The notes below the pieces were generated by a model that was not told the origin of the DNA, did no database searches, and saw only the letters and a program-made list of their open reading frames with translations. A DNA stretch of 64,000 nucleotides from Paraglaciecola sp. L1A13 (GTDB taxonomy: Bacteria > Pseudomonadota > Gammaproteobacteria > Enterobacterales > Alteromonadaceae). Shown one piece after another: positions 37,643 through 56,017 of this stretch (position 1 is its first letter; every line of letters starts with the position of its first letter). The stretch spans positions 4,030,001 through 4,094,000 of the forward strand of contig NZ_CP047024.1 of the NCBI RefSeq assembly GCF_009796745.1, read 5' to 3'. The position numbers and the translations under genes are program-made.

Positions 37643-37723
37643 TTACAGCGATTCTTGAGTTTGCTGAATGATTTTTCGTAATGTTGGTTGCGTTACATCG
37701 AGTAACTTTGCTTTATGTTTTTT
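37643..37723 (-). pseudogene. Out-of-frame C-terminal Fis-type HTH of the sigma54 activator
   Basis: Immediately past the activator's stop, the next frame encodes KHKAKLLDVTQPTLRKII then QQTQESL and a stop at 37643. This resembles the recognition HTH of Fis-family regulators (AA-LL-G-n-TLRKKL pattern). The two frames join if the A6 run at 37718-37723 (six T's on the plus strand) is read as five: QLNVSQ-KHKAKLLDVTQPT. I list it separately because the frame break is real in this sequence. It may be a mutation, a sequencing error, transcriptional slippage or a phase-variable tract. Confidence 0.6.
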
Positions 37724-40679: not shown

Positions 40680-42448
40680 AATTCTGGCATCAAATGGTTA
40701 AAATTCTGCTGTAGTAACGGAGCGATATACTCTGCCGCAACGGGTCGCGAGAAGAGATATCCTTGTAGCAGTAATTTTTCGGTATTTTGTAGGATCTTTA
40801 TTTGGCTAGTATATTCGATACCTTCCGCTATCACCCCAAGCTTCAAGCTTGTGGCCAAAGCCAATATAGCCTCAACAATTGCCTTATCATCCGGTGCTGA
40901 ATTCACATCACACATAAAGGAACGATCTATCTTGAGAATATCAATAGGGAAACGTTTTAGGTAACTTAACGAAGAGTAACCTGTGCCAAAATCATCAACA
41001 GCAAGAGATATACCGAGGTTTTTCAATTCAATCAATCGAGCAATATTCTCTTGTGCATCACTCATGATCACCGATTCAGTCAATTCCAATTCGAGTAGCG
41101 ACGGAGGTAACTCACTCTGTGCTAAAACGTTCGCTACGATTTGCGTAAAATCGGGTTGTCGAAACTGGTGTGCTGACACGTTAATCGCAATGCGCACCGG
41201 AGTCCCCATATCGACCCATTTTTTAGCCTGATGACATCCCTGCTCTAATACCTGACGTCCCAGTTCATTTATCAGCCCTGTTTCTTCTGCGATAGGGATA
41301 AACTCATCAGGAGGAATAATACCGCCTTGAACGGGAAGCCAACGAACCAACGCCTCAACCCCAACAATTTTACCCGATTGAGCGCATATCTGTGGCTGAT
41401 AAAATGGCACAATTTCATCATTTTTCAGTGCACGGCGTAGGTCCTGCTCAAGCTGCAAACGAGCGGCTGCTTTGGCATTCATGGAATCTTGATAAAATTT
41501 GTAGCAACAACGACCTGATTGCTTTGCAAAGTACATCGCAGTATCGGCATTCTTAAGCAGCATTTCTGCGTTTTCACCATCGTTAGGAAACATAGAAATA
41601 CCGATACTAGGGGTAATGACCACCTCGTATTGCTCTAACTGAAATGGCTTACTAAAACTGCGGATCACTCGTTCGGCCACCAGCGTCGCTTCATTAGGGT
41701 CGTTTAAATGACTTAAGAAAATGGTAAACTCGTCACCACCAAAACTCGCTAATTGCGGCTCATCGGCTTCGAGAAAGCTCCCCGTGCGAGCGAACATATC
41801 GCTGTCTCGTAGATTGGCTTGTAAACGATGTGCAACCTTTCGTAGTAACTTGTCGCCGTAACTGTGGCCCATGGTATCGTTGATCCGTTTAAAGCGGTCA
41901 AGATCGATAAATAACATGGCAGCTTGATATTCATTTCGCTTAGCCATCGCTAAAAAACGATGTAAGTCTTTCATCAAGTACTGTCGGTTGGGTAAACCTG
42001 TTAGGGTGTCGTAAAATGCTAGTTTATGCAGTGCTTGTTGCTGGATAACCAAATCAGCGAAGGCCTGACTGGCGCGAAGAATGTATTTGACCCGTTCACC
42101 CAAAATAGGCCATTTAATGGGTTTTGCAATAAAGTCAGTCGCACCTACGGCGTATGACTTGTGAATCGATTCTAAGTCATCTGAGCCTGTCACCATAATA
42201 ATGGGAATATGCTTGCCCTTTTCATGTGCACGAATATATTCACACACTTCAAAACCATTCATTTCGGGCATAGATACGTCCAACAGCAGCAACGCCGGGC
42301 TATGTTTTTCAAACTGTTCGATGGCCCGTTTACCATTTTCAGCTTCAAGCACTTCAATGGTGTCGCTGGCGAGAGTTTCTTTCATTAGGATACGAGCAGT
42401 GAGATCGTCATCACTGACTAAAATCTTAACTTTTCCTTCAATCGACAT
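40676..42448 (-). CDS. Response regulator with GGDEF and EAL domains
   Basis: 590 aa. Receiver (about 8-125) with acidic pair DDD (13-15), phosphoacceptor Asp57 (LLLLDVSMPEMNG) and Lys109. The GGDEF domain (about 140-315) has intact GGDEF at 237-241, but about 12 residues (SFLEADEPQLAS) are inserted just before it; an RDSD I-site precedes the insert. The EAL domain (about 330-580) has EAL at 365-367, DDFGTGYSS (495-503) and AEGIE near 541-545, all needed for phosphodiesterase activity. It should make and/or degrade c-di-GMP under phosphorylation control. The gene overlaps the hybrid kinase by 11 bp, so that kinase is the probable phosphodonor. Confidence 0.9.
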   Translation of the reverse strand: MSIEGKVKILVSDDDLTARILMKETLASDTIEVLEAENGKRAIEQFEKHSPALLLLDVSMPEMNGFEVCEYIRAHEKGKHIPIIMVTGSDDLESIHKSYAVGATDFIAKPIKWPILGERVKYILRASQAFADLVIQQQALHKLAFYDTLTGLPNRQYLMKDLHRFLAMAKRNEYQAAMLFIDLDRFKRINDTMGHSYGDKLLRKVAHRLQANLRDSDMFARTGSFLEADEPQLASFGGDEFTIFLSHLNDPNEATLVAERVIRSFSKPFQLEQYEVVITPSIGISMFPNDGENAEMLLKNADTAMYFAKQSGRCCYKFYQDSMNAKAAARLQLEQDLRRALKNDEIVPFYQPQICAQSGKIVGVEALVRWLPVQGGIIPPDEFIPIAEETGLINELGRQVLEQGCHQAKKWVDMGTPVRIAINVSAHQFRQPDFTQIVANVLAQSELPPSLLELELTESVIMSDAQENIARLIELKNLGISLAVDDFGTGYSSLSYLKRFPIDILKIDRSFMCDVNSAPDDKAIVEAILALATSLKLGVIAEGIEYTSQIKILQNTEKLLLQGYLFSRPVAAEYIAPLLQQNFNHLMPEL

Positions 42449-45400
42449 GTCTAAATGCTTCCAATTTCTCGCAACTGATATTAAATATCGACTGAATGCG
42501 CTGAGCTAACGGGTGTATATCACTCCCTTGAGTATTCTTCATTTTGCCTTCTAATTCCTTACACAATTCGTATAAGGCTTTGGCGCCTGAGTTTCCAGCC
42601 ATAGATTTAAGCGCATGAGCAATTTCGCCAATAGTCGTGAAATCAGGCTCATCAAGGTTAACTTGCTCATTCAGTTGGTCGACTAATTTTTCGGCTTCTT
42701 GTGTAAATGCATCAAGAACTCGGTCAAATACAGGATTGCCAGTATCCCGTGAAATTTTTAGTAAGGTGTCAATGGTTCCCATATCTAATAAGCTCGATGG
42801 CCCTGTATCATCAGGCTCAGACTCATGTTCAATATCGCGTTCTGTTGTTTTGCCTGCGCTGGTACTTTTAGGGCCATTCGGAACGGGCAAATAACGCAGT
42901 AACATTTGCTCTAATTCTTGCAAAGAGAAAGGTTTAGACATGACTTCATTCATGCCTGAATCTAAGCATTGCTGGCGCAAGTTATCGCCCATACCGGCCG
43001 TAAGGGCAACAATGGGTATATTAGGCCAATTATTCCGGATCGCTCTAGTTGCGGCGTAACCGTCCATCACTGGCATTTGGCAGTCCATTAAAACTAAATC
43101 AGGTTGCTGTAAATTCACTTGTTCAACGGCTTCTGCACCGTTATCAGCTAACCAAGCTTCACAACCTAATAGTCCCAACATACTCTTGGCGACTTCTTGA
43201 TTCGTTAAGCTATCTTCTGCCACCAGAATATTGGCATTAAATTTTTGATGATTACGATGATCTTCATCTAGGCGTTTTTGGTTTTCATTTTCAATGCCCA
43301 AAGCGCGGCATAGACTCTGATGCAAACCTCTAAAATGAACGGGCAGAGGTAATATATTGCGCTGATCATTTTCTTGCCATTGAGACGTCGGCAGTAAACA
43401 AATCCAATTTTTCAGGTTAATCCCTGATTCTTCAAGAGCTGTTTGATACTCCGATTGGCTTACCCATAAACCATTTTTAGCCGATGCCAACTCAGATTTT
43501 ATCCGTTGAACATGCACTACTTTGATGTCTAACTTACCCAACATCGTTTCAATAGATTTACCAAGGCCCACGGTTAGATTAACCAAATGCACAGTAGGGC
43601 AGTTATAAATCGGCTCAAGTTGCGGCAAGATATTTTCAGTTAATGGTAAATCAACCTCCAAACTAAATCGACTGCCCTCCCCTATATTTGATTGCAGGGC
43701 CAAATTGCCCCCCATCAATGCAGTTAATTGCTTACAAATAGCTAAGCCTAAGCCGGTACCGCCATATTTACGTGTGGTAGAAGCATCCGCCTGCGTGAAC
43801 ATTTCAAACACTTTTTGCTGACGATCTGGCGCCATACCAATACCTGTATCTTGCACACAAAACACAAAACCACTGTACTGTGCATCACTCAATTTCCGCT
43901 TAGCTGCAACATCGTGACAGGGTACTCGTCTAATGCTGACATTCACCTCACCGCGCTCGGTAAACTTAATAGCGTTACTGGTTAGGTTAGCGATGATTTG
44001 GCGTAATCGTGCTGGGTCGGCATAAACCTGAGGCAATACTTCATCTGACAAAATAGCATTGATGTGCAGACCTTTGTTGTAAGCCGCTTCGCTAAACAAG
44101 TCGCACACTTCTTCAAGCAAGGCTTCTAAATCAACTGGCACCGATTCCAATGCTGCTTTGCCTGCTTCTAATTTTGAAAAGTCTAAAATATTATTCAACA
44201 GATCAAGTAACAACCGACCAGATCGATATACTAATTGCGCAAAATGCTGTTGTTTGGGTTTCAAATCGGAACTTAGCAGAACCTCCGTCATGCCAAGCAC
44301 ACCATTCATGGGGGTACGAATTTCATGGCTCATGATCGCAAGAAAGTCACTCTTCTCTTTACTTGCTTGCTCAGCAAGTCGTCGGGCCTTTTCAGTTTCT
44401 TCCATGGCGTGTTCGAGTTGTGTATTGGCATAGCGCAACTCTTTGGTACGCTCTTCTACTTTGTCTTCCAATTCGATCAAGCGCTGCATTTCACGTAAAC
44501 GTTTTTGGCGGTATCGCCACACAACATTCAACATAATCAGCAATATAATTAATACGTAAAGACCATAGGCCCACAGAGTTTTCCAAGGGGGCGGTAACAC
44601 CGTTAATGGTAATGCTACACCTTGCGTGTTCCACAAGCCTTGATTGTTACTGGCTTGCACTTTGAGTACGTAATCGCCGGCGGGTAAATTAGTAAAGGTT
44701 GCTAAGCGTCGATGCTCTAACTCAATCCAATTTGGATCTAACCCTTCGAGTTTGTAACGGTATTCATTTAAACCTGGCGCATTAAAATCTAGCGCAGCAA
44801 ATTCAAAGGATATAAAATAGTCTTTATAATCCAGCTCTAGCTCTTGCAAGCGCTGGTAAGGCACATCAAACCACACCTGTTCATTGAGCTTTTTGATACG
44901 CACTAAGACGACAGGTGGAATAATATCACTGTCTTTGATGTCATCCGGATGGAAGCGGATCATGCCTTCATTACCACCGAAGTACATAAACCCTTGGCTA
45001 TCTTTAAACCCCGCCCCGAAATTAAATTCACTTTCTTTCAAACCCTGTGACGTATCGAAATGACGTACTTTGCCGCTATCAGGATCTAGCCGTGTTAAGC
45101 CGGCAGTGCTGCTAAGCCATAGATGGCCTTTGTCATCATTTAATATCGTATAAATATGACTACTGGGCAGGCCACTAAAACTGTCATAGTGTGTGAAGTT
45201 ATTACTCAAGGCCGCGATATCTCGAGCGGACCATCTATTCAACCCTCCTCCTTGCGTTCCGACCCATAATTGCGCTTTTTCGTCTTGATAAAAAGCCCAC
45301 GCCATTGATGCAGATAAACTATCAAAGTTTTCTGGTTGGTGCTCAATGTGCTCAAAGTCCAACGTTACAGGGTCGAGTAAATTTATGCCCGAAACGGTAC

Positions 45401-46946
45401 CAACAACCATAGTTCCGTCAAGAAGTTGATAAACCGCTAACACACGATCATTATTAAGGCTTCTTGGGTTATTTTCATCAAAGCGATAATGCACAAAATC
45501 TTTACTTCCGGCTGGTAGATAGTTCACCCCACCACCAAATGTCCCCACCCAAACATTACCTGCATTGTCCGGGAATACACTCGTTACGCCATTAAAACTC
45601 AAACTCTTAGGGTTTTCTGGCTCATGCACGAAGTATTCTATTTGCTGGGTATCTACATTAAGTCGACCCAGACCACCGCCTCGGGTGCCAAACCACAGTA
45701 TATTATTATCACCTCGCACGGTCATTACTCGTGCATCGTGTAGCGCTGGTACACTGTCTTTATTAATGACTTCCTGTACTTCCCCGTTGCTGTTTAGCCG
45801 GGTTAGTCCGCCATAAGTTGCCACCCAAATAGCGCGCTCTCCAATGGACGATTCAGTTTCAGCGAAACCGAGAACAACCTTACTAGCCAACCCTTTTTCA
45901 ATGTATTCAAAGGGCACTTCGATACTTTTGGTAATACCATTGTAGGTACCAAACCACAGCAAGCCTGATGAGTCCTGTAAAATCGACAATATTTTATTGT
46001 CACTTAATCCATCGTCGATATTAAAGTTGGTAAATTTATCTCTTCCATCCCAAAGACTTGCTCCAGCTTCAGTTCCAAGCCAAATACGTTGGTGCTGATC
46101 TTGATAAACGGTGTGCACTAAATTCGCGGCTAAACTATTGGGCTGATCGGCATGGTGTTGCCAATTAGTAAAATTCATTCGCTGGGGATCAAACACACTA
46201 ACGCCAGCATCATGGCTGGTCACCCATAACCGCTGTTGAACGTCGACGAATAACTGCGTTAACCGATCACTAAATAGCGGCACGCTAGCGCCAGTATGCA
46301 GTCGTGTTAGTTCTTTCGTTTTCTTATTTAACTTGAGTAAGCCATTACCGTCGGTCGCAAACCAGATATTATGCAAATCTTCAACGATGGACATAATGGC
46401 CGCATCTTTATCTAATTCAGGTAACAAGACTCGCGTATCGAAGTGTTCAAATTGCATATCGAGCGGGTTGAATCGGCTGAAATTGCCATCATTGTAGCCT
46501 AACCAGATAGAGCCACTTGTTTCGCGTATCATGCTTCTAACTTGATTGGACATGGGTGATGCTAAAAATGTAGCCCCCTCTTTTAGGCTCGAAAACGTTT
46601 GCTTAGCAGCGTTAAATAAATTGAGCCCACCGCCGTCAGTGGCAATCCATAAACGTTTCTCGTTATCCTCTAATACCGCCCTTACATTGTCAGAGCTAAG
46701 CGAATCAGGTTTGCGCGGATCATGCACAAAACTAAGCAGTTGATAACCGTCATAGCGGTTCACGCCTTCTTGGGTCACTATCCACAAGTAACCGGTGCTG
46801 TCTTGGTATATTTGACGAACGGTTTTTTGTGACAATTGCTGGCTTAATTCAGCTGGCGTAAAGCTAAAGTTTGGGGTATCAGCAGCGTGAATACCTGAGC
46901 TGAAAGAGAGGAAGCATATGAACCAAAAAATACCGTTTCTAAACAT
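42438..46946 (-). CDS. Beta-propeller hybrid histidine kinase with receiver and Hpt domains
   Basis: 1502 aa. Signal peptide (1-21), a large periplasmic region of two-component-regulator propeller repeats (about 30-690, many LWxGTxGGGLN-type blades), Y_Y_Y domain (about 705-785; EYRYKLEGLDPNW), TM helix (about 792-810) and coiled coil. HisKA follows with His874 (MSHEIRTP), then HATPase (N-box around 987-991, DTGIGM 1033-1038, GTGLGLAI 1063-1070). A receiver-like domain without the phosphorylation residues (about 1115-1215), a full receiver with Asp1288 and Hpt with His1444 (HALKSMAGNSG) complete it. The sensing half is a close paralog of the diguanylate cyclase at 50003-53218. It overlaps the downstream REC-GGDEF-EAL gene. 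Confidence 0.92.
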   Translation of the reverse strand: MFRNGIFWFICFLSFSSGIHAADTPNFSFTPAELSQQLSQKTVRQIYQDSTGYLWIVTQEGVNRYDGYQLLSFVHDPRKPDSLSSDNVRAVLEDNEKRLWIATDGGGLNLFNAAKQTFSSLKEGATFLASPMSNQVRSMIRETSGSIWLGYNDGNFSRFNPLDMQFEHFDTRVLLPELDKDAAIMSIVEDLHNIWFATDGNGLLKLNKKTKELTRLHTGASVPLFSDRLTQLFVDVQQRLWVTSHDAGVSVFDPQRMNFTNWQHHADQPNSLAANLVHTVYQDQHQRIWLGTEAGASLWDGRDKFTNFNIDDGLSDNKILSILQDSSGLLWFGTYNGITKSIEVPFEYIEKGLASKVVLGFAETESSIGERAIWVATYGGLTRLNSNGEVQEVINKDSVPALHDARVMTVRGDNNILWFGTRGGGLGRLNVDTQQIEYFVHEPENPKSLSFNGVTSVFPDNAGNVWVGTFGGGVNYLPAGSKDFVHYRFDENNPRSLNNDRVLAVYQLLDGTMVVGTVSGINLLDPVTLDFEHIEHQPENFDSLSASMAWAFYQDEKAQLWVGTQGGGLNRWSARDIAALSNNFTHYDSFSGLPSSHIYTILNDDKGHLWLSSTAGLTRLDPDSGKVRHFDTSQGLKESEFNFGAGFKDSQGFMYFGGNEGMIRFHPDDIKDSDIIPPVVLVRIKKLNEQVWFDVPYQRLQELELDYKDYFISFEFAALDFNAPGLNEYRYKLEGLDPNWIELEHRRLATFTNLPAGDYVLKVQASNNQGLWNTQGVALPLTVLPPPWKTLWAYGLYVLIILLIMLNVVWRYRQKRLREMQRLIELEDKVEERTKELRYANTQLEHAMEETEKARRLAEQASKEKSDFLAIMSHEIRTPMNGVLGMTEVLLSSDLKPKQQHFAQLVYRSGRLLLDLLNNILDFSKLEAGKAALESVPVDLEALLEEVCDLFSEAAYNKGLHINAILSDEVLPQVYADPARLRQIIANLTSNAIKFTERGEVNVSIRRVPCHDVAAKRKLSDAQYSGFVFCVQDTGIGMAPDRQQKVFEMFTQADASTTRKYGGTGLGLAICKQLTALMGGNLALQSNIGEGSRFSLEVDLPLTENILPQLEPIYNCPTVHLVNLTVGLGKSIETMLGKLDIKVVHVQRIKSELASAKNGLWVSQSEYQTALEESGINLKNWICLLPTSQWQENDQRNILPLPVHFRGLHQSLCRALGIENENQKRLDEDHRNHQKFNANILVAEDSLTNQEVAKSMLGLLGCEAWLADNGAEAVEQVNLQQPDLVLMDCQMPVMDGYAATRAIRNNWPNIPIVALTAGMGDNLRQQCLDSGMNEVMSKPFSLQELEQMLLRYLPVPNGPKSTSAGKTTERDIEHESEPDDTGPSSLLDMGTIDTLLKISRDTGNPVFDRVLDAFTQEAEKLVDQLNEQVNLDEPDFTTIGEIAHALKSMAGNSGAKALYELCKELEGKMKNTQGSDIHPLAQRIQSIFNISCEKLEAFRHVD

Positions 46947-47170
46947 ACCTGAATTACATCTTATTCTTCTTTTAAAAATAGACTACCGCAAAGCCCACCT
47001 TATGCCAACAAATAGCCTCTAATACAAACACTTGCCTTACACACCTAAATGCATAGGTGTTAGATATAATGTGTTTTAAATTAGAACGTTCAGTTGAGAT
47101 ACAACGAGGAATAAATGCTTATTAATAAAAGTGCGAGGAAATAGATAAGAGGAATTAGAGGACTAATAAA

Positions 47171-47220
47171 AGCGCCCCTTACTCTTATGAAACAACGTTC
47201 ATAGAAATAAAGGGCACCGC
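47171..47220 (-). terminator. Terminator after the first repeat-tailed subtilase
   Basis: On the minus strand GCGGTGCCCTTTATTTC and AGTAAGGGGCGC form an imperfect stem around a TATGAACGTTGTTTCATA inner hairpin, followed by TTTTATT. It starts 14 bp after the protease stop, separating the protease from the hybrid kinase gene. Confidence 0.7.
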
Positions 47221-47233
47221 TAAATATGTAAGG

Positions 47234-49372
47234 TTACTCTTGCAACATGAAGTTTTCCTGATTCATATATGCTTCGTCCCACATAAAGGCTTCGTCCCAC
47301 ATAAAGGCTTCATCCCACATAAAGGCTTCATCCCACATAAAGGCTTCATCCCACATAAAGGCTTCATCCCACATGAAGGCTTCATCCCACATAAAGGCTT
47401 CATCCCACATAAAGGCTTCATCCCACATGAAGGCTTCTTCCCAAACTTCGAACTCAAAACCTTCGATATAATAATTACCGTTGTCATCTTTACGGGCTGC
47501 ACCCATATAATGCTGTTCGCCACTTAAGTCAGCTGCGATATCCATACCGTTATTAGCGCAATTAGAACGTGTTGACTGTACTGCCATAAGTGCATTAACA
47601 CTGCCCGATCCTTGTTGGAAAGGGCTATAGGCTAATTTACCATTTGCCTGCGCCATTGTAGTACTGCTCATTAAACGACACTTTATATCGTTCGCACTTA
47701 AGCTTGGGTCGTTTTGCAACATTAATGCAACCACACCGCTGACCACACCAGAAGCCTGAGAGGTCCCAGACATGATAAAACGGTCATCGCCTACCATATA
47801 TTGAGGAAATTTGTTTGGCACATACATATCTTCATTGGCCAAACTAAACATATGGCCACCGGGCGCCACCATATCAGGCTTGATAAAAGCCTCATGCGTT
47901 GGGCCTTGCGATGAAAACGATAGTAAGGTGTCATCATTTGGATTGTCTTGGGTATAGTTGTCGCTTATCGCACCAACGCTAATAACATAAGGTACGTTAG
48001 CTGGAACGCCTATCGTCATTGCTGAGGGCCCTGTATTACCAGCAGAAGTGACAACAACAATGTCTTTTTCCCACAATGCCATAACCGCTTGGTTAATCGG
48101 ATCATCCCAGTAGTTTGAGCGCGGCGGCGCACCGAACGAAAGATTCACAACACGAATATTTAACGCCTCATAATTATCAGCAATATACTGTAACCCGCGT
48201 AATGCATCTAAATAAGTACTGTGACCATCTTCATGAAATGCCTTCACCACCACTAGATTAGCGTCTGGGGCGACACCTTGATAAAAGCTGCGCATTTGGC
48301 CGTCAACAATTGCACGGTCACTGTTAGCAATAATACCGGTGATGTGAGTACCATGACTATTTTCGTCAGTCATGTTATCCGCTGTCACATCAATATTTTC
48401 AATCGCATCATAAGCTGCTGTTATTCTTGCTCGGTTTTCAGTGTTTTTACTAAGAGCGCTTTTGCTGGCCCAAAGTCCGCTATCTATCACCGCAACGGTT
48501 ACATCTTTACCGGTAATACCTTGGTCGTGAAGTTCATCTGCCCCTATATTGTTTACATAGTAGCTATTGCTATCTTCATCGCTCGCTTGTGTGTCGTAAC
48601 CTTTGACTAAGCTACGATCACAATCTTCTGCAAACTCGACGTCCATTGAAAAATCACGTTGGTCGTAACTATCTGTGCCATAGCGTGAAAACGACACTTC
48701 AACCGTGGCACTTTCAAATGAATCTAAATTGGCATAGCGACTTAAGCTACTATTATCCAAGGTTAATTCACCATTTTGGCGACTAAATAAACTCCAATAG
48801 ACAGTTTTACCATTAAATTTAACTGACCGTACTTGGCCTAGTTGCTCTGGCCAAGAAAATGTCATTTTTTTAGCGTTCGCTTGCATATCTTTAGCGTTAT
48901 ATAAATTCCAACGGATCTTATTTGCCGTTAAATCAACAACATGACTACCGTACACCAAGCAATGATCCAACGCGCCCGATGTGAAAACAGCTTCATTTTC
49001 AGTAATTTTAATCAAACCAAGTGGTAAATTTCTCAAAATGGTAAGTTGTAAATCACTCACTCGCACGCCAATACCACCGACTAATGGTAATTCATGGGTT
49101 ACAAGCCCACCAACGGTATCTATAAGCTGACGCAGCACAGCAATATCGCCACCTTGAATCAGTATTTCGTTATCCATACTCAAAAGGCTGTTAACAATAG
49201 GGACTTCTGGTAAACCTAAAGACGTTGTCAATTCGTTTACATCAAGTGTGGTCACAATTTCGTCTAAGTTTAAACCTAGTAACCCACTCGCTGATGCGGA
49301 CAGAGGCAAAACAGAAAAGCCCATTAACCCCGCAAGTAATACCGCACTTTTTTTATTAAATTTTAGTTTCAT
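47234..49372 (-). CDS. Secreted S8 subtilase with C-terminal WDEAFM hexapeptide repeats (copy 1)
   Basis: 712 aa from the ATG at 49372 (AGGAAT upstream); a 15-codon extension to 49417 is not favoured because it would precede the clear signal peptide (KKSAVLLAGLMGFSVLPLSASA). An N-terminal region of about 260 residues, unlike standard I9 inhibitors, precedes the catalytic domain. The triad is Asp297 (VIDSGLW), His340 (SHGTHITG) and Ser538 (SGTSQASG), with oxyanion Asn in TSAGNTGPS. After the protease fold the segment ENY-type linker (GNYYIEGFEFEV) leads into ten hexapeptides, WEEAFM, eight WDEAFM and WDEAYM, then NQENFM and LQE. No C-terminal TM or sorting signal is present. The 706-aa paralog at 53548 has the same triad numbering. 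Confidence 0.88.
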   Translation of the reverse strand: MKLKFNKKSAVLLAGLMGFSVLPLSASASGLLGLNLDEIVTTLDVNELTTSLGLPEVPIVNSLLSMDNEILIQGGDIAVLRQLIDTVGGLVTHELPLVGGIGVRVSDLQLTILRNLPLGLIKITENEAVFTSGALDHCLVYGSHVVDLTANKIRWNLYNAKDMQANAKKMTFSWPEQLGQVRSVKFNGKTVYWSLFSRQNGELTLDNSSLSRYANLDSFESATVEVSFSRYGTDSYDQRDFSMDVEFAEDCDRSLVKGYDTQASDEDSNSYYVNNIGADELHDQGITGKDVTVAVIDSGLWASKSALSKNTENRARITAAYDAIENIDVTADNMTDENSHGTHITGIIANSDRAIVDGQMRSFYQGVAPDANLVVVKAFHEDGHSTYLDALRGLQYIADNYEALNIRVVNLSFGAPPRSNYWDDPINQAVMALWEKDIVVVTSAGNTGPSAMTIGVPANVPYVISVGAISDNYTQDNPNDDTLLSFSSQGPTHEAFIKPDMVAPGGHMFSLANEDMYVPNKFPQYMVGDDRFIMSGTSQASGVVSGVVALMLQNDPSLSANDIKCRLMSSTTMAQANGKLAYSPFQQGSGSVNALMAVQSTRSNCANNGMDIAADLSGEQHYMGAARKDDNGNYYIEGFEFEVWEEAFMWDEAFMWDEAFMWDEAFMWDEAFMWDEAFMWDEAFMWDEAFMWDEAFMWDEAYMNQENFMLQE
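47246..47443 (-). repeat. 18-bp tandem repeat encoding WDEAFM, copy 1
   Basis: Eleven 18-bp units encode WEEAFM, 8 x WDEAFM, WDEAYM and a diverged NQENFM. The core units are almost identical at the nucleotide level, differing mainly by synonymous changes (for example GAC or GAT, TTT or TTC), which points to recent expansion or homogenisation. Confidence 0.95.
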
Positions 49373-50002
49373 GTGTAATTCCTGTTTAAATGAGTCGCCC
49401 GATATAAGTGGTAGCAAACTTATACCGATACCTCCGTTACTTCACTTATGATAGCAATACACATGCCAATAAATAAGCACTTGATTTTATTGAGTTTAAT
49501 TAAATAAATGAAAATTATGGATGTTTACATTGAAATTACTGAATGATATTTTTGATTGCTTTAATACTTTGGTTGCACCCATTTTTTACACACTTAAATA
49601 TTTAAGTGAAGAAAAAATGGTAAACGGTTAACTTGGGACAGAAATCTACCTTGCGATTAATAAGCTATCTGCACCGCGTTAAGACCCATAGGTGTTTGCC
49701 CAAGACTGAGAGAGCTTATCCGTAGCATCTGCATTAAGTTAGACAATGTATTCGCTGATCTCATTTGAGCTGACGATAAAAAAGTTGAGCGCTCATTTCG
49801 TTAATGTACGTCGCGCTGTTATTACGTGGATAACGCACACGTGCGCAGCCAGTGGGTATAAGTTGATTGAAACTTGCAATAACGGATGCTTATTGTTTTA
49901 AGCTTTGATAAATCATCTGGCTTTCAACTGTTTGACAGCCATACAATCCGCACAATTTAGCGCGATCTTCTGATGCGGTAAGGTTATATCTTTACTAAAC
50001 TA
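49373..50002. other. Intergenic region with shared upstream motif of the subtilase genes
   Basis: About 630 bp without a supportable gene, upstream of subtilase copy 1 and downstream of the propeller cyclase. Near 49564-49577 it holds ATACTTTGGTTGCA (TGCAACCAAAGTAT on the coding strand), which is repeated exactly 194 bp upstream of subtilase copy 2. The flanking AT-rich segment (TGAAATTACTGAATGATA against TGAAATTATTAAATGATA) is also alike. Confidence 0.6.
49564..49577 (-). promoter_or_regulatory. Shared 14-bp motif upstream of subtilase copy 1
   Basis: TGCAACCAAAGTAT on the minus strand, 192 bp before the ATG. The identical 14-mer occurs at 55875-55862 before the paralog. Conservation within otherwise diverged intergenic DNA suggests a regulatory site; the factor is unknown. 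Confidence 0.5.
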
Positions 50003-53000
50003 CTAACGCCATAAAATCTTGTCAGTATCGGTAATAGAACTGGCTAAACGAAGTTGCCCTAACTGAATTAATTGTTCCGTTTTTTCAACAATCGCTAGAA
50101 AAGTGTCTTCTTCATTACATGTTGAATCAAGTAGCCCTACCCAAGCATTTCGTCCTGATTTTTTAGCCGCATATAAGCACAAGTCGGCAATATCGATGGT
50201 TCGTTCCCAATTTAATGCGGTAGGTTGATGGGACAAAAGCGGAAATACCGAAAAACCAATAGAACACGTAATATTAAGCACATTGCCTTGATCAATTTTA
50301 AATTCATATTCTTCAACAACATTTCGCAGTCGTTCAGCTAATCGCGGTGCATTTTCTCTGTCGACAAATCGCGCAACAACTAAAAACTCCTCCCCTCCCC
50401 AGCGCAATAAATATTCAGTCTCTCGAAAAACGCGTTCTAGAATAGACTTAACGTGAATTAACACCGCATCACCGGCACTGTGACCGTATTTATCATTAAT
50501 GTGTTTGAAATGATCCAAGTCCATTAAAAAGAAAATGAGATCTGTGTCTTCGGCTGACACTAAGGCACTTCTGTCTTTACTGCTTTTATAACGATTGAGC
50601 ACTAAATCAACATCTTTACTTAAGTTCTGCGCCAAATAACGGCGATTTTTTAAACCTGTTAAAGGATCTGTGAAACTGATTTGTTCAAGTTTTTCGTTTG
50701 CTCTAATTAGGTCGATGGTTCTTTCATCTACTTTCATCTCTAATTCTATTAGGTGCCGCTTCTCCCGCAAGCGCTTATGTTGATATCGTCTGATGCCGTC
50801 CAGTACAACTAATACCGAGAATATTGTGTACAAAATATAAGCCCAACTTGTCTGCCATGGAGGAGGCAGTACATGCAATTTTAAGGATTTCCCTTCTGTA
50901 TTCCATAGGCCCTGATTGTTGCTTGCTTGAACTCTAAGCACATAATCGCCAGCTGGTAAGTTAGTAAATGACGCCGATCGAGTATGTCCTAGCTCGACCC
51001 AGTTAGGGTCGAGCCCCTCTAGTTTATAGCGATATTCGTTTAGTTCAGGTGCATTGAAATCTAACGCAGCAAATTCAAAAGAAATATAATAATCTTGATA
51101 ATCCAAAACAATTTCAGGCTGATCTTGATAAAGCAAATCAACGCCCACTTTATCATTGAGTTTTTTGGTGCGCACTAAAACGACTGGTGGCACCTTCTGG
51201 CTATCGGTGATTTCATTAGGATGAAAACGAACGAACCCTGAGTTCCCTCCAAAATACATATAACCTTCACTGTCGGTAAATCCCGCACCAAAGTTAAACT
51301 CTTTGTCCTGTAATCCATTAGAGGAATCAAAATGGCGAACTTTGTTATTCACGGGATTAAAGCGTGTCAAACCAGCAGTGCTGCTAAGCCATAAATTAGC
51401 CTCCTCATCAGATTGAATCGAATATATGTGACTACTGGGTAAACCATTAAGGCCATTATAGTGGCTGAAGTGATTATTCAGCGCATCTATATCTGATGAA
51501 GACCATTTATTTAACCCTCCTCCTTGAGTACCCACCCAAAGGTTCATATCTGAATCTTGATGAAGGGCCCACGCCATTGGGGCAGATAAACCGTCAATTT
51601 TATCTGTCTGATATTCAATGCGGTCGAAATCTAAAGTTATCGGGTTGAATAAATTGATCCCCGAAACCGTTCCAATAACTAAAGTGCCATCTTCGAGTCG
51701 TTCAAGTGCTAAAACACGATCGCTACTAATACTTCTTGGATGGTTTATTTGGTACCTATAATGCACGAAATCATTGCTTCCTTTGGGCAGAAAATCTAAT
51801 CCTCCGCCAAAAGTACCGATCCAAAGATTACCTTCACGGTCAGGTAGAATTGCCGATACCCCGTCGAAACTTAAACTTTGTGGATTTTTAGGATCATGTT
51901 CTAGGTAGTTGATTTTCTGTGAATCAACGTTTAAGCGTCCCAAACCGCCACCTCTTGTGCCAAACCATAAAATATTTTGCTCACCGCGGACTGTCATAAC
52001 CCGATCGTCGGCGAGCGCCGGGCTACTCTGCTTGTTTATGACCTGTTGCACTTCTCCATCGCTATTCAGTTTTGTTAGTCCTCCGTAACTGGCAACCCAA
52101 ATAGACCGGTCCCCGTCAGACGAAAGGGTTTCTGCAAATCCCAAAACAACATTGCTTGCTAAGCCTGAATCAATTTGCTCAAAAGGTATTTCAATACTCT
52201 TGGTAATACCGCTATAGGTTCCAAGCCACATTAAGCCAGACGCGTCCTGCAAAACAGACAGAATTATATTGTCACTCAGTCCATCTTTAACTGTGAAATT
52301 TGTAAAACCTTTACTACCATCCCACAGACTTACGCCCGCCTCCGTTCCCAGCCAAATCCGCTTTTGCTGATCTTGATAAATAGTGTGGACGAAATTTGCT
52401 GCTAAACTATCGGCTTTATCTTGGTACGCTCGTAATTGAATAAACTTATTGCTTTTCGGAAGCAAAACACCTGCACCAGCGTCATAACTTGTTAACCACA
52501 TACGCTTTTGAACATCAATGAACACCTTGGTAAGACGATCACTAAAGAGTGGAGTTGCACTTTTTGTAGAAAGCCGGGAAAGTTGATTATCCATTTTGCT
52601 TAACTTCAGTAGCCCATTGCCATTAGTAGTTAAAAATAAGTATTGTTCATCCTCTAAGATTGAAGTGATGCCTGCATCATGATCCAGTTCTGGTAATAGC
52701 TCACGTGTATTAAAATGCTTGAACGTCATATCTTTAGAATTAAAGCGACTGAAATTACCATTGCGATATCCAATCCAAATGAAACCTTCGGTATCCAAAT
52801 ACAGTGCTTGTTGTCTATCGGAAGTAGGTTTGGTGACTGAGTTTTCTTCTGCAGCTAACTCAATAAAGTGATGCATCTCAGCATCAAACAAATTTAATCC
52901 TCCTCCGTCGGTCGCAATCCATAATCTATTGCGCTTGTCTTCAACTACAGCACGAACGTTATCACTGCTAATAGAATTTGCATCTCGAGGATCGTGTACA

Positions 53001-53218
53001 AAATTCAGCAGTTGATAGCCATCATAGCGACTTAGCCCTTCTTGAGTGACGAACCACAAATATCCGGTACTATCTTGATATACTTGGCGCACAGTTTTCT
53101 GTGAGAGCTGTTTGCTAAAGTCTGCGGCTATAAAACTAAAGAAAGGTCTTTCACTTGCGTTAAGTGTAATACTGAAAAAGACGGATAGTACGATCCAGAT
53201 CATTCCGTTTTTGAACAT
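50003..53218 (-). CDS. Beta-propeller diguanylate cyclase
   Basis: 1071 aa. Signal peptide (1-21), periplasmic propeller repeats (about 30-690), Y_Y_Y domain (about 705-785; EYRYKLEGLDPNWVELGH), TM helix (about 790-810), coiled coil, then a GGDEF domain (about 850-1020) with GGEEF at 941-945 and the metal-site DLDHFKHINDKYGH. The inhibitory I-site is altered: RETE stands where RxxD is expected, so product feedback may be weak. The first 810 residues align without obvious gaps with the hybrid kinase at 42438-46946, for example TVRQ-YQDSTGYLW and NVRAV-ED. After the coiled coil the two proteins differ completely. It lies directly downstream of subtilase copy 2. Confidence 0.92.
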   Translation of the reverse strand: MFKNGMIWIVLSVFFSITLNASERPFFSFIAADFSKQLSQKTVRQVYQDSTGYLWFVTQEGLSRYDGYQLLNFVHDPRDANSISSDNVRAVVEDKRNRLWIATDGGGLNLFDAEMHHFIELAAEENSVTKPTSDRQQALYLDTEGFIWIGYRNGNFSRFNSKDMTFKHFNTRELLPELDHDAGITSILEDEQYLFLTTNGNGLLKLSKMDNQLSRLSTKSATPLFSDRLTKVFIDVQKRMWLTSYDAGAGVLLPKSNKFIQLRAYQDKADSLAANFVHTIYQDQQKRIWLGTEAGVSLWDGSKGFTNFTVKDGLSDNIILSVLQDASGLMWLGTYSGITKSIEIPFEQIDSGLASNVVLGFAETLSSDGDRSIWVASYGGLTKLNSDGEVQQVINKQSSPALADDRVMTVRGEQNILWFGTRGGGLGRLNVDSQKINYLEHDPKNPQSLSFDGVSAILPDREGNLWIGTFGGGLDFLPKGSNDFVHYRYQINHPRSISSDRVLALERLEDGTLVIGTVSGINLFNPITLDFDRIEYQTDKIDGLSAPMAWALHQDSDMNLWVGTQGGGLNKWSSSDIDALNNHFSHYNGLNGLPSSHIYSIQSDEEANLWLSSTAGLTRFNPVNNKVRHFDSSNGLQDKEFNFGAGFTDSEGYMYFGGNSGFVRFHPNEITDSQKVPPVVLVRTKKLNDKVGVDLLYQDQPEIVLDYQDYYISFEFAALDFNAPELNEYRYKLEGLDPNWVELGHTRSASFTNLPAGDYVLRVQASNNQGLWNTEGKSLKLHVLPPPWQTSWAYILYTIFSVLVVLDGIRRYQHKRLREKRHLIELEMKVDERTIDLIRANEKLEQISFTDPLTGLKNRRYLAQNLSKDVDLVLNRYKSSKDRSALVSAEDTDLIFFLMDLDHFKHINDKYGHSAGDAVLIHVKSILERVFRETEYLLRWGGEEFLVVARFVDRENAPRLAERLRNVVEEYEFKIDQGNVLNITCSIGFSVFPLLSHQPTALNWERTIDIADLCLYAAKKSGRNAWVGLLDSTCNEEDTFLAIVEKTEQLIQLGQLRLASSITDTDKILWR

Positions 53219-53487
53219 AAATCCATCAATAATATTATTCTTATAAAAATATCGTAACCCAAAGCCTTTCCTATTCCCACATATTCTTAAGTAACAATAA
53301 CTTGAACAAAAAAACAGCGAAAAAAATTATTCAGCAGCCATTGTTAATTACCGCTTCAGCTAAAAGAGCATTAATGTGTTTGAGCAGGCGATCACGGTAT
53401 GTAGCAATGAATGAAAGTAAAGTCCGGCTTAGCCAGCGAGAATACATTCGCTTGAATGTGCGATAGAGGTAAATAATTGAAACAAAA

Positions 53488-53531
53488 ATGCCCCTTTATC
53501 AACGAATAGTATTCATCGATAAAAGGGGCAT
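53488..53531 (-). terminator. Terminator after the second repeat-tailed subtilase
   Basis: On the minus strand ATGCCCCTTTTATC pairs with GATAAAGGGGCAT around an inner loop, then TTTTTG. It starts 17 bp after the stop and mirrors the terminator after copy 1 in position and architecture. Confidence 0.8.
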
Positions 53532-53547
53532 GATATTCAGAAACGTA

Positions 53548-55668
53548 TTATTCTTGGAGCATGAAATTTTCTTGGTTCATATGGGCTTCATCCCACATAA
53601 AGGCTTCATCCCACATAAAGGCTTCATCCCACATAAAGGCTTCATCCCACATAAAGGCTTCATCCCACATGAAGGCTTCATCCCACATAAAGGCTTCATC
53701 CCACATAAAAGCTTCATCCCACATGAAAGCTTCTTCCCATACCTCAAATTCGAAGCCTTTAATGTAGTAGTTGCCGTTTTCGTCTTTACGAGCCGCGCCC
53801 ATATAATGCTGTTCACCGCTTAAGTCTGCCGCGATATCCATGCCATTATTGGCACAACCTGCCTCGTTAGACTCAACCGCTTTAACCGCATTAACACTAC
53901 CAGAGCCTTGTTGAAATGGGCTATAAGCCAATTTGCCATTTACCTGCGCCATTGTGGTGCTGCTCATTAAGCGGCATTTCACATCGTTCGCACTCAGACT
54001 TGGGTCGTTTTGCAGCATTAGCGCAACCACACCACTAACCACGCCCGACGCTTGTGACGTACCCGACATAATGAAACGGTCATCGCCAACCATATATTGT
54101 GGAAATTTACTCGGCACATACATATTTTCGTTGGCTAAACTGAACATGTGTCCGCCCGGTGCCACCATATCTGGCTTGATAAAGGCTTCGTGAGTTGGCC
54201 CCTGAGACGAAAACGATAGCATAGTGTCATCATTTGGATTGTCTTGGGTGTAGTTATCGCTGATGGCCCCAACGCTAATAACATAAGGTACGTTAGCCGG
54301 AACGCCAATGGTCATCGCGCTAGGACCGGTATTACCTGCCGACGTCACCACCACAATATCTTTTTCCCACAATGCCATTACTGCTTGGTTTATCGGATCA
54401 TCCCAGTAGTTCGAGCGAGGCGGCGCACCAAACGACAGGTTAACTACCCGTATATTCAAAGCCTCATGGTTATCAGCAATGTACTGCAATGCGCGAAGTG
54501 CATCTAAATAGGTGCTGTGCCCATCTTCGTAAAAGGCCTTGATAACAACTAAATTAGCATCTGGCGCAACACCTTGATAATAGCTGCGCATTTGACCGTC
54601 AACAACAGCATGATCACTGTTAGCAATAATGCCCGTAATATGGGTACCATGGCTGTTCTCGTCCGTTACACTAAGTGCGTCAACGTCTTCGTCATTAAGC
54701 GCATTATAAGCCGCTTTGATTCGGGTCTTGTCAGTAGTGTCATTACTTAAGGCGCTATGGGCTGACCAAAGGCCACTGTCAATAACGGCAACGGTAACAT
54801 CTTTACCAGTAATACCCTTATCATGCAGTTCATCAGCCCCAATATTATTAACATAGTAGCTGTTGCTATCCCCTTCGTTCGCTTGAGTGTCATAGCCTTT
54901 AACTAAACTGCGATCACAATTTTCTTTAAACTGCACATCTAATGAGAAATCGCGTTGAGTATAATCTTGCGTACCTTGCCGAGCAAAATTCAGTTCAATG
55001 GTCGCACTTTCGAACGCATTTAACTTAGCGAAGCGTTTTAAGCGTTTGATATTAATCGATAACTCACCCGTTTTACGGCTGAATAAACGCCAGTAAACAG
55101 TACTTCCATTCACTTTTACAGAGCGCACATGTCCCAGCTCTTCAGGCCATGTAAATGACATACTCTCCATATTGGCTTGCTTGTCGCGGGCGTTGTATAA
55201 ATTCCAACGAATTTTATTCTCTGTAAGCTCTACAACGTGGCTACCATAAACTAAACAGTTGTCTAACGAACCTGAAGTAAAAACGGCTTCGTTTTTAGAA
55301 ACCTTTATCAAGGGGGCTAATTGGGTAAGTATAACCAGTTGCGTGTCACTAACACGGGCACCTATTCCGTCTACTAACGGGAGTTTATGTGTTACAACAC
55401 CGCCAATGCTTTCAACTACGTCTTTTAAAATACTGACCTCAGCACCTTGAATTAAGACTTCGTTATCTAGCCCGACAAGGCTATTAACGACCTTGGTAAT
55501 ATTTGAGGCGCCAAGAGAACCTTTCATCTCGCTTACGTTAGCGCTATCTACCACCTCGTAAACAGTGCTTCCTACCAAACCATTATTTGCTGCAACGGCT
55601 GGTAAAGACAGAGCTCCCATCAACCCTATGAGCAGTAGTGTATTGCGTTTTTTAAATTTTGGTTTCAT
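53548..55668 (-). CDS. Secreted S8 subtilase with C-terminal WDEAFM hexapeptide repeats (copy 2)
   Basis: 706 aa with a signal peptide (NTLLLIGLMGALSLPAVAA, cleavage near residue 27). Catalytic triad Asp297, His340, Ser538, identical in numbering to copy 1, with long stretches of identity across the protease domain (for example NLSFGAPPRSNYWDDPINQA). The N-terminal region (30-250) is more diverged, though VFTSGSLDNCLVYGSHVV and NKIRWNLYNARDKQAN remain recognisable. The tail begins at residue 644: WEEAFM, seven WDEAFM, WDEAHM, NQENFM and LQE. It is followed by a terminator and then the propeller diguanylate cyclase gene. Substrate and role of the tail are unknown. Confidence 0.88.
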   Translation of the reverse strand: MKPKFKKRNTLLLIGLMGALSLPAVAANNGLVGSTVYEVVDSANVSEMKGSLGASNITKVVNSLVGLDNEVLIQGAEVSILKDVVESIGGVVTHKLPLVDGIGARVSDTQLVILTQLAPLIKVSKNEAVFTSGSLDNCLVYGSHVVELTENKIRWNLYNARDKQANMESMSFTWPEELGHVRSVKVNGSTVYWRLFSRKTGELSINIKRLKRFAKLNAFESATIELNFARQGTQDYTQRDFSLDVQFKENCDRSLVKGYDTQANEGDSNSYYVNNIGADELHDKGITGKDVTVAVIDSGLWSAHSALSNDTTDKTRIKAAYNALNDEDVDALSVTDENSHGTHITGIIANSDHAVVDGQMRSYYQGVAPDANLVVIKAFYEDGHSTYLDALRALQYIADNHEALNIRVVNLSFGAPPRSNYWDDPINQAVMALWEKDIVVVTSAGNTGPSAMTIGVPANVPYVISVGAISDNYTQDNPNDDTMLSFSSQGPTHEAFIKPDMVAPGGHMFSLANENMYVPSKFPQYMVGDDRFIMSGTSQASGVVSGVVALMLQNDPSLSANDVKCRLMSSTTMAQVNGKLAYSPFQQGSGSVNAVKAVESNEAGCANNGMDIAADLSGEQHYMGAARKDENGNYYIKGFEFEVWEEAFMWDEAFMWDEAFMWDEAFMWDEAFMWDEAFMWDEAFMWDEAFMWDEAHMNQENFMLQE
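53560..53739 (-). repeat. 18-bp tandem repeat encoding WDEAFM, copy 2
   Basis: Ten 18-bp units encode WEEAFM, 7 x WDEAFM, WDEAHM and NQENFM. There is one unit fewer than in copy 1, and the same nucleotide phase and codons are used. Confidence 0.95.
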
Positions 55669-56017
55669 AAGTATTTATCCGGTAAATTTGTCGCGATATG
55701 AAAGCGAGTTAGCCACTTGCTATATTTCGGCGATAACTATCCTCGTCAAAGCAATTAACAGGCCAATAAATAACCAGTTGTTTTATATAGGTAAAATTTA
55801 AAAATGATAAAAATGACACCTTTGGGATGAAATTATTAAATGATAATTTTGAATGAGGGTGATACTTTGGTTGCAGTCACTATTTTCAATAGTTAAACGC
55901 TTTTAGTTCATCCAGCAGCACTAAGCTACGAGAAGGTTGGATAGAATTTAGCTTTTTTTAGAGCGGTGGGCTTTTCATCGTAAGCTCGTATACATGTGTA
56001 TCAATCGGTCGACTGAG
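55669..56017. other. Intergenic region upstream of subtilase copy 2
   Basis: About 350 bp, AT-rich, no gene seen. It contains the shared 14-bp motif at 55862-55875 and should include the promoter of subtilase copy 2 and the 3' end of the REC-GGDEF-EAL transcript. Confidence 0.5.
55862..55875 (-). promoter_or_regulatory. Shared 14-bp motif upstream of subtilase copy 2
   Basis: TGCAACCAAAGTAT on the minus strand, 194 bp before the ATG of subtilase copy 2. It is identical to the copy 192 bp before subtilase copy 1. Confidence 0.5.

Follow-up and report, generated by a model that had tools for sequence, protein, structure and literature searches.

A tryptophan-repeat-tailed subtilase and its dedicated propeller receptor: a protease–receptor module conserved across distant bacteria

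Whether a secreted protease that is repeatedly encoded next to one kind of membrane sensor forms a functional unit with it is the question raised by a 64,000-nucleotide stretch of the Paraglaciecola sp. L1A13 genome (contig NZ_CP047024.1, positions 4,030,001 to 4,094,000; referred to as the window, in whose numbering coordinates are given). Its minus strand carries, in order, a subtilase (copy 1, 53548..55668), a propeller/Y_Y_Y sensor of 1071 amino acids (aa) with a cyclase-type GGDEF output that reads GGEEF (50003..53218), a second subtilase (copy 2, 47234..49417) and a propeller/Y_Y_Y hybrid kinase of 1502 aa with a HisKA-HATPase-REC-Hpt output (42438..46946). A sequence-only reading of this DNA had given the four genes the same order, strand and coordinates and had proposed that protease and sensor make up one functional unit; the former is confirmed, with the domain content of all four genes backed by Pfam, and the latter finds strong support in adjacency, a dedicated propeller clade and congruent trees. 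That reading made no mention of the activator gene, of the sigma-54 sites or of how widely the module occurs. What emerges is a real protease–receptor module, conserved across distant bacteria. Computation shows the pairing of protease and sensor, a receptor clade dedicated to it, the promoter sites and a constraint acting on the protease tail. A literature search, with subscription papers largely outside its reach, found no paper on a module of tailed subtilase and propeller, and the partnership looks like an undescribed signalling unit.

The model favoured here, to which a probability of about 0.6 is assigned, is that of a sensor-regulated secreted-protease module with a feedback loop running through the dedicated propeller and a sigma-54 activator. 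A sigma-54 promoter would drive synthesis of a subtilase that is exported and carries a multivalent tail of Trp repeats. In the periplasm, either this protease itself or its tail or the peptides that it produces would be read by a dedicated receptor of the inner membrane with a double propeller. The output of the receptor, which would be interchangeable between a phosphorelay, synthesis or breakdown of cyclic di-GMP and a fused sigma-54 activator, would reach the sigma-54 activator, which in turn would set protease transcription and so close the loop. The neighbouring activator probably drives the subtilase promoters and the receptor probably controls the activator, with the tail as the leading candidate for the ligand bound by the receptor and peptides released by the protease as the next.

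The partnership of protease and propeller

Among 14 genomes, 18 of 24 family subtilases lie within 10 kb of a Y_Y_Y match, as opposed to 1 of 47 other S8 peptidases (Fisher 7e-11), and the single non-family peptidase so placed itself adjoins a family member; within 5 kb the counts are 15/24 and 0/47. Family membership in this control means a match of the subtilase-family search at E ≤ 1e-30, with the tail itself not inspected, and six second pieces of split matches were merged, which reduced 77 rows to 71 genes. Seen from the side of the sensors, 18 of the 68 Y_Y_Y matches in these genomes are near a family subtilase. In a wider sample, for which 80 of 365 confirmed relatives were kept (loci are cited by L numbers, genomes by G numbers), 46 of 87 tailed subtilases have a propeller gene in the stretch examined and 32 have one at most two genes away; among the 37 with at least 8 kb on both flanks, a propeller lies within 8 kb of 26 and a signalling gene of any kind accompanies 30, while 22 of 33 loci flanked in this way hold a propeller. 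Of 73 stretches whose neighbours within five genes were clustered at set thresholds, 32 have a propeller, 23 an EAL protein and 17 a sigma-54 activator that is about 1000 residues long and in many cases includes a GGDEF-like region. The partnership recurs in Acidobacteria, a deltaproteobacterium and other Gammaproteobacteria, with a prevalence that is low and patchy (4 of 274 sampled Gammaproteobacteria at E ≤ 1e-110, one of them this genome), and the pairing of subtilase and propeller is well supported.

The pairing is not obligate. A propeller is absent from 41 of the 73 stretches with a picked subtilase, many of them cut by contig ends; 26 of these 41 loci were queried genome-wide, and of the 22 genomes concerned 15 gave a propeller match at E ≤ 1e-100 and 12 hold a member of the dedicated clade described below, some of them holding paired loci as well. 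Two Chloroflexi loci without a propeller (L080, L095) have their tailed subtilases beside giant AAA and TPR proteins, perhaps a different signalling partner; in L095 the giant protein also contains a cyclase-like domain, and histidine kinase and response regulator genes lie nearby. At L050, L052, L086 and L105 a gene of 722–726 aa precedes the sigma-54 activator; it encodes malate synthase G in L050, and the copies of L050, L086 and L105 cluster together.

Is the propeller a dedicated partner, or any member of a large sensor family? In a tree of 101 propeller ectodomains, which includes non-adjacent propellers of Alteromonadales, Acidobacteria, a deltaproteobacterium and other Gammaproteobacteria and omits L202 and duplicates of L141, L052 and L067, all 48 partner propellers fall into one clade of 55 (support 0.998), and the partner propellers of Alteromonadales group with those of Acidobacteria and with other partners, away from most propellers that their genomes otherwise contain. 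A tree of 131 sequences, to which 29 propellers (30 loci) were added from genomes whose queried subtilase locus had shown no propeller, recovers the clade with support 1.0 and 79 members, namely the 48 partners, 8 labelled non-partner and 23 of the 29 added; four of these additions (L081, L094, L193 and L194) are genes that the first tree contained as well. An open reading frame (ORF) with a W array lies at most 1.5 kb from the propeller at four added loci, two of them already counted as partners (L081, L193) and two new (L241, L242). At L241 (15-1403) and L255 (2206-7765), subtilases whose catalytic domains are only about 33% identical to those of the window copies likewise have a W array, and they adjoin a clade-type propeller (a frame of 821–875 aa) that the Y_Y_Y and output-domain queries did not match. 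Outputs within the clade comprise kinase, GGDEF, EAL and sigma-54 AAA domains, or none was found. By structure the ectodomain matches 4a2l (E 9e-87), and the best Foldseek match is 4a2m at 2e-52 (BT4663).

The trees of protease and propeller are congruent (Mantel r 0.86 for 31 pairs, reached in 0/5000 permutations), also with close relatives removed (r 0.54, 23 pairs, 0/5000), and the incongruence that the sequence-only reading had named as a possible objection is not seen. It should be noted that congruent trees by themselves cannot tell co-function from shared descent.

The tail and the predicted sigma-54 promoters

Both window proteases contain a Peptidase_S8 domain (Pfam E 2e-47 and 5e-48), copy 1 being a protein of 706 aa with a Sec-type signal (judged by eye), a prodomain and a tail of W-containing hexapeptides. 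Residues D297, H340 and S538, which we take to be the catalytic triad from standard subtilase knowledge, are invariant in 24 and in 82 aligned family members and, as had been claimed, have the same numbering in both copies, provided that copy 2, listed from a TTG, is counted from the likelier ATG start at codon 16 (about 49372). The tail motif is likewise common to both, with arrays of 9 and 10 WDEAFM units at 53584..53739 and 47271..47443 on the minus strand. Homologues in distant bacteria have C-terminal W-x5 arrays, often closed by a sequence like INxWVxQE, and at least three regularly spaced W are present in 87 of 89 picked subtilase ORFs (77 loci and the window); the subtilases of L052, L064, L067, L084 and L104, omitted by the ORF pick, were identified separately and have tails. 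Between units of the same array, 3333 synonymous and 706 nonsynonymous single-base codon differences were counted (79 arrays), a synonymous fraction of 0.83 as against 0.17 expected, and the fraction exceeds expectation in 76 of 77 arrays with at least 10 differences, which implies that the hexapeptide itself is under selection. The amino acids of the tail are strongly constrained, and although constrained at the protein level the tail differs between lineages.

The tail usually stands at the C-terminus or close to it, and in three Chloroflexi loci (L063, L076, L077) the residues after it end in LYLPIV-like sequences, a possible separate anchoring signal. It matches no Pfam or NCBIfam model. 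W arrays do not appear to be a general feature, since the TGG(N15) matches listed in 14 genomes are family subtilases or simple, collagen-like or antisense repeats, except for a 92-aa frame over an 18-bp repeat on G017 contig 17. The N-terminal part of the homologue P0111 has a second array, of YLWDDEKPTE-like repeats, ahead of the prodomain, and on G017 contig 132 (1793-2654) a tailed subtilase gene with an internal stop, a pseudogene or an assembly error, lies beside an intact propeller. A phage origin was considered and rejected, the PHROGs matches to the catalytic domain being generic. Two phrogs of unknown function match tails of the WxEAF type weakly (E 7e-4 to 5e-7), phrog_7964 in 3 of 7 tailed proteins scanned (E 1e-4 to 5e-7) and phrog_5070 in two of those; neither matches L030 with its WEEAFM units, and the matches are therefore read as probably due to composition. 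None of the phage and plasmid records covers 80% of the protein, with partial matches in 38 and 293 records, and PADLOC returned subtilase and IetS models and nothing else.

Does the receptor read the tail? For locus-mates, tail similarity was set against that of pairs from different loci matched in catalytic identity, with fragments and duplicates dropped; of 18 loci, 15 had a mean quantile under 0.5 and 8 had one under 0.05 (Wilcoxon 0.003). At most loci with one propeller, one tail type is kept among locus-mates despite catalytic identities of 40–63%; this is sharpest at L255, where one propeller is flanked by two subtilases whose catalytic domains are 40% identical and whose tails have a similarity of 0.89. 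Clearly two-type tails (similarity below 0.3) occur at L041, L094 and the related pair L083/G033, three independent loci, each with two propellers. Loci with two tail types thus have two propellers in 3 of 3 cases versus 2 of 12 multi-subtilase propeller loci with one type (p 0.02, computed by hand and post hoc), where propellers were counted only within the stretches examined, L060, with intermediate tails (similarity 0.59) and one propeller, was taken as one type, and L095 and G033b, which have no propeller, were left out. A strict rule of one propeller per tail type was rejected, as two propellers go with a single tail type in the window and in L100. The partial Mantel correlation of tail with propeller given the catalytic domain is 0.24 (79/5000) for 30 pairs hand-chosen as nearest neighbours, with the fragment L022 dropped, and 0.26 (0/5000) for all 38 pairs. 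These results favour the tail as the recognised element without amounting to proof. The sequence-only reading had offered two examples of how the unit might work, a protease whose product or tail is sensed and a sensor gated by proteolysis; the tail results would fit the first of these.

Both window subtilases are preceded by a −24/−12 site within two mismatches, giving the predicted sigma-54 type promoters TTGGCCTGTTAATTGCT of copy 1 (55750..55766) and TTGGCATGTGTATTGCT of copy 2 (49453..49469), both on the minus strand; sites were scored with a weighted consensus, whose −24(GG)/−12(GC) pattern agrees with a published description (PMC1569441). At one mismatch or fewer, such a site precedes 19 of 85 tailed subtilases as against 5 of 689 other genes (Fisher 2e-15; shuffle mean 0.45), and at two or fewer the counts are 30/85 and 60/689. 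The site is aligned within the 140 bp of upstream DNA that the two window proteases have in common and is present in 12 of 12 Alteromonadales upstream regions compared, and 9 of the 12 also have a TGCAA element about 100 bp upstream, which could be the binding site of the activator. A pattern built from the two window sites, TTGGCMTGTNNATTGCT, has no third exact match in the genome, searched as a single 4.97 Mb contig, which contains one sigma-54 gene. The sensors do not seem to be under the same site, as 0 of 40 propeller genes have it at one mismatch or fewer and 5 of 40 at two. At L051, L057 (by Pfam) and L065, a propeller that is itself fused to a sigma-54 AAA domain lies beside a tailed subtilase, a fusion that links the receptor to the promoter type. 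Putative sigma-54-type promoters before many tailed proteases are well supported.

The two copies and their surroundings

How did the window come to have two such pairs? The sequence-only reading had seen a tandem duplication of a two-gene module, which is plausible as such; the copies, however, are paralogues of long standing that have been retained differentially within the genus. Protein identity between the two proteases is 79%, and over residues 385–584 it reaches 96–98% with third codon positions at only 0.54–0.58, so that the duplication is old and under purifying selection. In a tree of the genus, copy 1 falls together with proteins of Paraglaciecola sp. 20A4, P. mesophila and MB-3u-78 (support 1.00) and copy 2 with P. 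chathamensis and a different 20A4 protein (0.85), and the cyclase-type propellers make up a group of their own (0.97); two paralogous lineages with differential retention account for this better than a duplication that is recent and local would. The event is old and lies at the level of the genus, and the nearest named proteins to those of the window module are from Paraglaciecola.

That the two sensors share their periplasmic half was borne out, the first 850 residues being 42–78% identical per 50-residue window and mostly 54–78%. Their upstream DNA, also described as similar, has just 52 bp in common at 73% (E 1e-4); the proteases share more, a point missing from that description, namely 140 bp at 72% (E 1e-14) in blocks at 55750..55888 (copy 1) and 49453..49590 (copy 2) on the minus strand. 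The same terminator position had been ascribed to both proteases, which is borne out only in part; a terminator-like hairpin of 17 pairs follows copy 1 (53491..53527, minus strand), the hairpin after copy 2 is discernible by eye only, and a scan of the region gave 13 such sites against a shuffle mean of 12.9, hence no excess.

Downstream on the minus strand, the kinase gene overlaps by 11 bp with that of a REC-GGDEF-EAL response regulator (40676..42448), which overlaps by 4 bp with the gene of the sigma-54 activator (37713..40679), a protein with a GGDEF-like domain devoid of the GGDEF motif. The run of subtilase, hybrid kinase, REC-GGDEF-EAL protein and activator recurs in relatives such as L030, L032, L036, L037 and L038. 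An exopolysaccharide cluster upstream, an initial guess, was discarded, as the ten ORFs scanned at 6–36 kb (6152-33648) are mostly genes of cell wall and division, by NCBIfam ftsI, murF, murD, murC, ftsQ and rsmH for the most part, with secA and a glycerol kinase, an ordinary set.

Competing explanations and meaning of the module

Several findings weigh against the favoured model. The sequence-only reading had held that tailed subtilases regularly found without propeller sensors would speak against the unit, and in part they are so found, for beside the contig-cut stretches 11 of the 33 well-flanked loci have no adjacent propeller and 7 of the 22 queried genomes, Chloroflexi included, have none at E ≤ 1e-100. 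Within the clade there are 7 of 53 propellers labelled non-partner (8 with L202); of these, L203 is adjoined by a subtilase with a sparse W tail, L188, L189 and L190 lie on short contigs or end at a contig boundary or close to it, and the genuine exceptions are L191, L194, L141 and also L202. No subtilase was seen in the stretches of L141/L197, L202 (ORF search only), L191 and L194, whose clade propellers are possible orphans or have partners in trans. No promoter site within two mismatches was found for 55 of the 85 tailed subtilases, and TTGGCMTGTNNATTGCT at one or two mismatches occurs at 48 further places versus 16 for a reversed control. AlphaFold gives the tail a predicted local distance difference test score of about 26 and no confident fold, which also leaves the idea of a folded solenoid without support. 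Lastly, tails match in L095 although its genome gave no propeller match, and they are not matched within L041, L094 and G033b.

What else could produce the observed arrangement? A chance neighbourhood of common gene types, or descent of one operon without a functional link, draws on the facts that adjacency alone can last in close relatives and that Mantel tests mix co-function with shared species history; it is very improbable given that in the same genomes S8 peptidases outside the family have no Y_Y_Y match nearby, bar the one beside a family member, and that Alteromonadales partner propellers cluster with distant partners. A stronger competitor follows the nutrient logic of polysaccharide utilization loci (PULs), in which the propeller would sense oligopeptides released by the subtilase, or another substrate molecule, and switch on the protease regulon, the tail only anchoring the enzyme to cells, matrix or substrate. 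The hybrid two-component systems (HTCS) of Bacteroidetes PULs have a DNA-binding output in the same polypeptide as the histidine kinase and receiver. The window sensors resemble them (BT4663, BT3049) in the ectodomain of double Reg_prop propeller and Y_Y_Y, in the enzyme gene beside the sensor and, in the kinase form, in a phosphorelay within one polypeptide; unlike them, they are partnered by a subtilase and not by a glycan enzyme, the outputs also include GGDEF, EAL and sigma-54 AAA domains, the 42438 sensor (HisKA-HATPase-REC-Hpt) has no DNA-binding match and the 50003 sensor ends in GGDEF (Pfam). The window sensors work like HTCS and are not classed as HTCS. This nutrient-type account gains from the receptor type, whose characterised Bacteroides members sense oligosaccharides and control enzymes of the adjacent locus (PMC3243724), from the best structural match being BT4663 (4a2m/4a2l) and from the several paralogous subtilases per locus, which suit degradation. 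Pure anchoring, however, does not demand a single tail type among locus-mates as divergent as those described, and no transporter was found in the eight neighbour clusters present in at least three loci (set thresholds, within five genes); the account is considered possible, if doubtful.

A third explanation compares the W tail with the sorting or surface-assembly signal of PEP-CTERM proteins, such that the sensor would report the state of the envelope and the sigma-54 promoter would be a shared regulon mark. In the PEP-CTERM/PrsK-PrsR system, sigma-54 sites lie in the long regions upstream of the genes for tail-bearing exported proteins, and a membrane kinase and an activator belong to the system too (PMC1569441); this is matched here by the activator and kinase and by the sigma-54 site upstream of both tail-bearing window genes; the usual position of the tail at or near the C-terminus also suits it. 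The repeat tail of the module, by contrast, has no Pro-Glu-Pro motif, its sensor is a propeller and the window activator scores 310 bits where the cut-off for PrsR is 502.6. That the tail is a sorting signal confined to the very C-terminus is disfavoured because other segments follow the tail in L063, L076, L077 and L097, a membrane helix is not obvious by eye, and no processing enzyme was found in the same eight clusters within five genes, all of which makes this explanation unlikely. Two further systems share parts with the module. A secretion component handling C-terminally tagged cargo (PMC5121618, PMC8545088) is also a double propeller and ranks 16 in Foldseek; unlike the module sensors, it has no signalling output domain, and identity is 12%. 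AprX/mycosin-like subtilases have the S8 catalytic domain in common with the window copies, which unlike the mycosin of the type VII secretion system score only 134.9 and 132.2 bits with TIGR03921 (cut-off 278.75).

If the favoured feedback model is retained, a narrower version of it holds that the receptor is signalled to by the Trp-repeat tail itself, which would act as a polyvalent ligand either in its intact form or as short peptides into which the protease cuts it, and that the specificity of the dedicated propeller co-evolves with the tail type. This version is put forward only tentatively, and we would sooner bet against it, the more so because L095 has matched tails without a propeller; together with the mismatches at L041, L094 and G033b, this suggests that tail homogeneity may come from gene conversion, which could contribute within loci. 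Were the tail the signal, a cell or population would be monitoring its own secreted protease, by means of a receptor with the fold of HTCS whose ligand, a protein or peptide, is made by its own locus.

Propeller/Y_Y_Y sensors are numerous outside Bacteroidetes, with 39 matches at E ≤ 1e-100 in the genome of L048 alone (G348, Acidobacteriota), and to our knowledge few of them have a known ligand. A clade of such sensors that is tied, across distant bacteria, to one secreted protein supplies a defined candidate ligand and a promoter, and turns what these receptors bind into a directly testable question.

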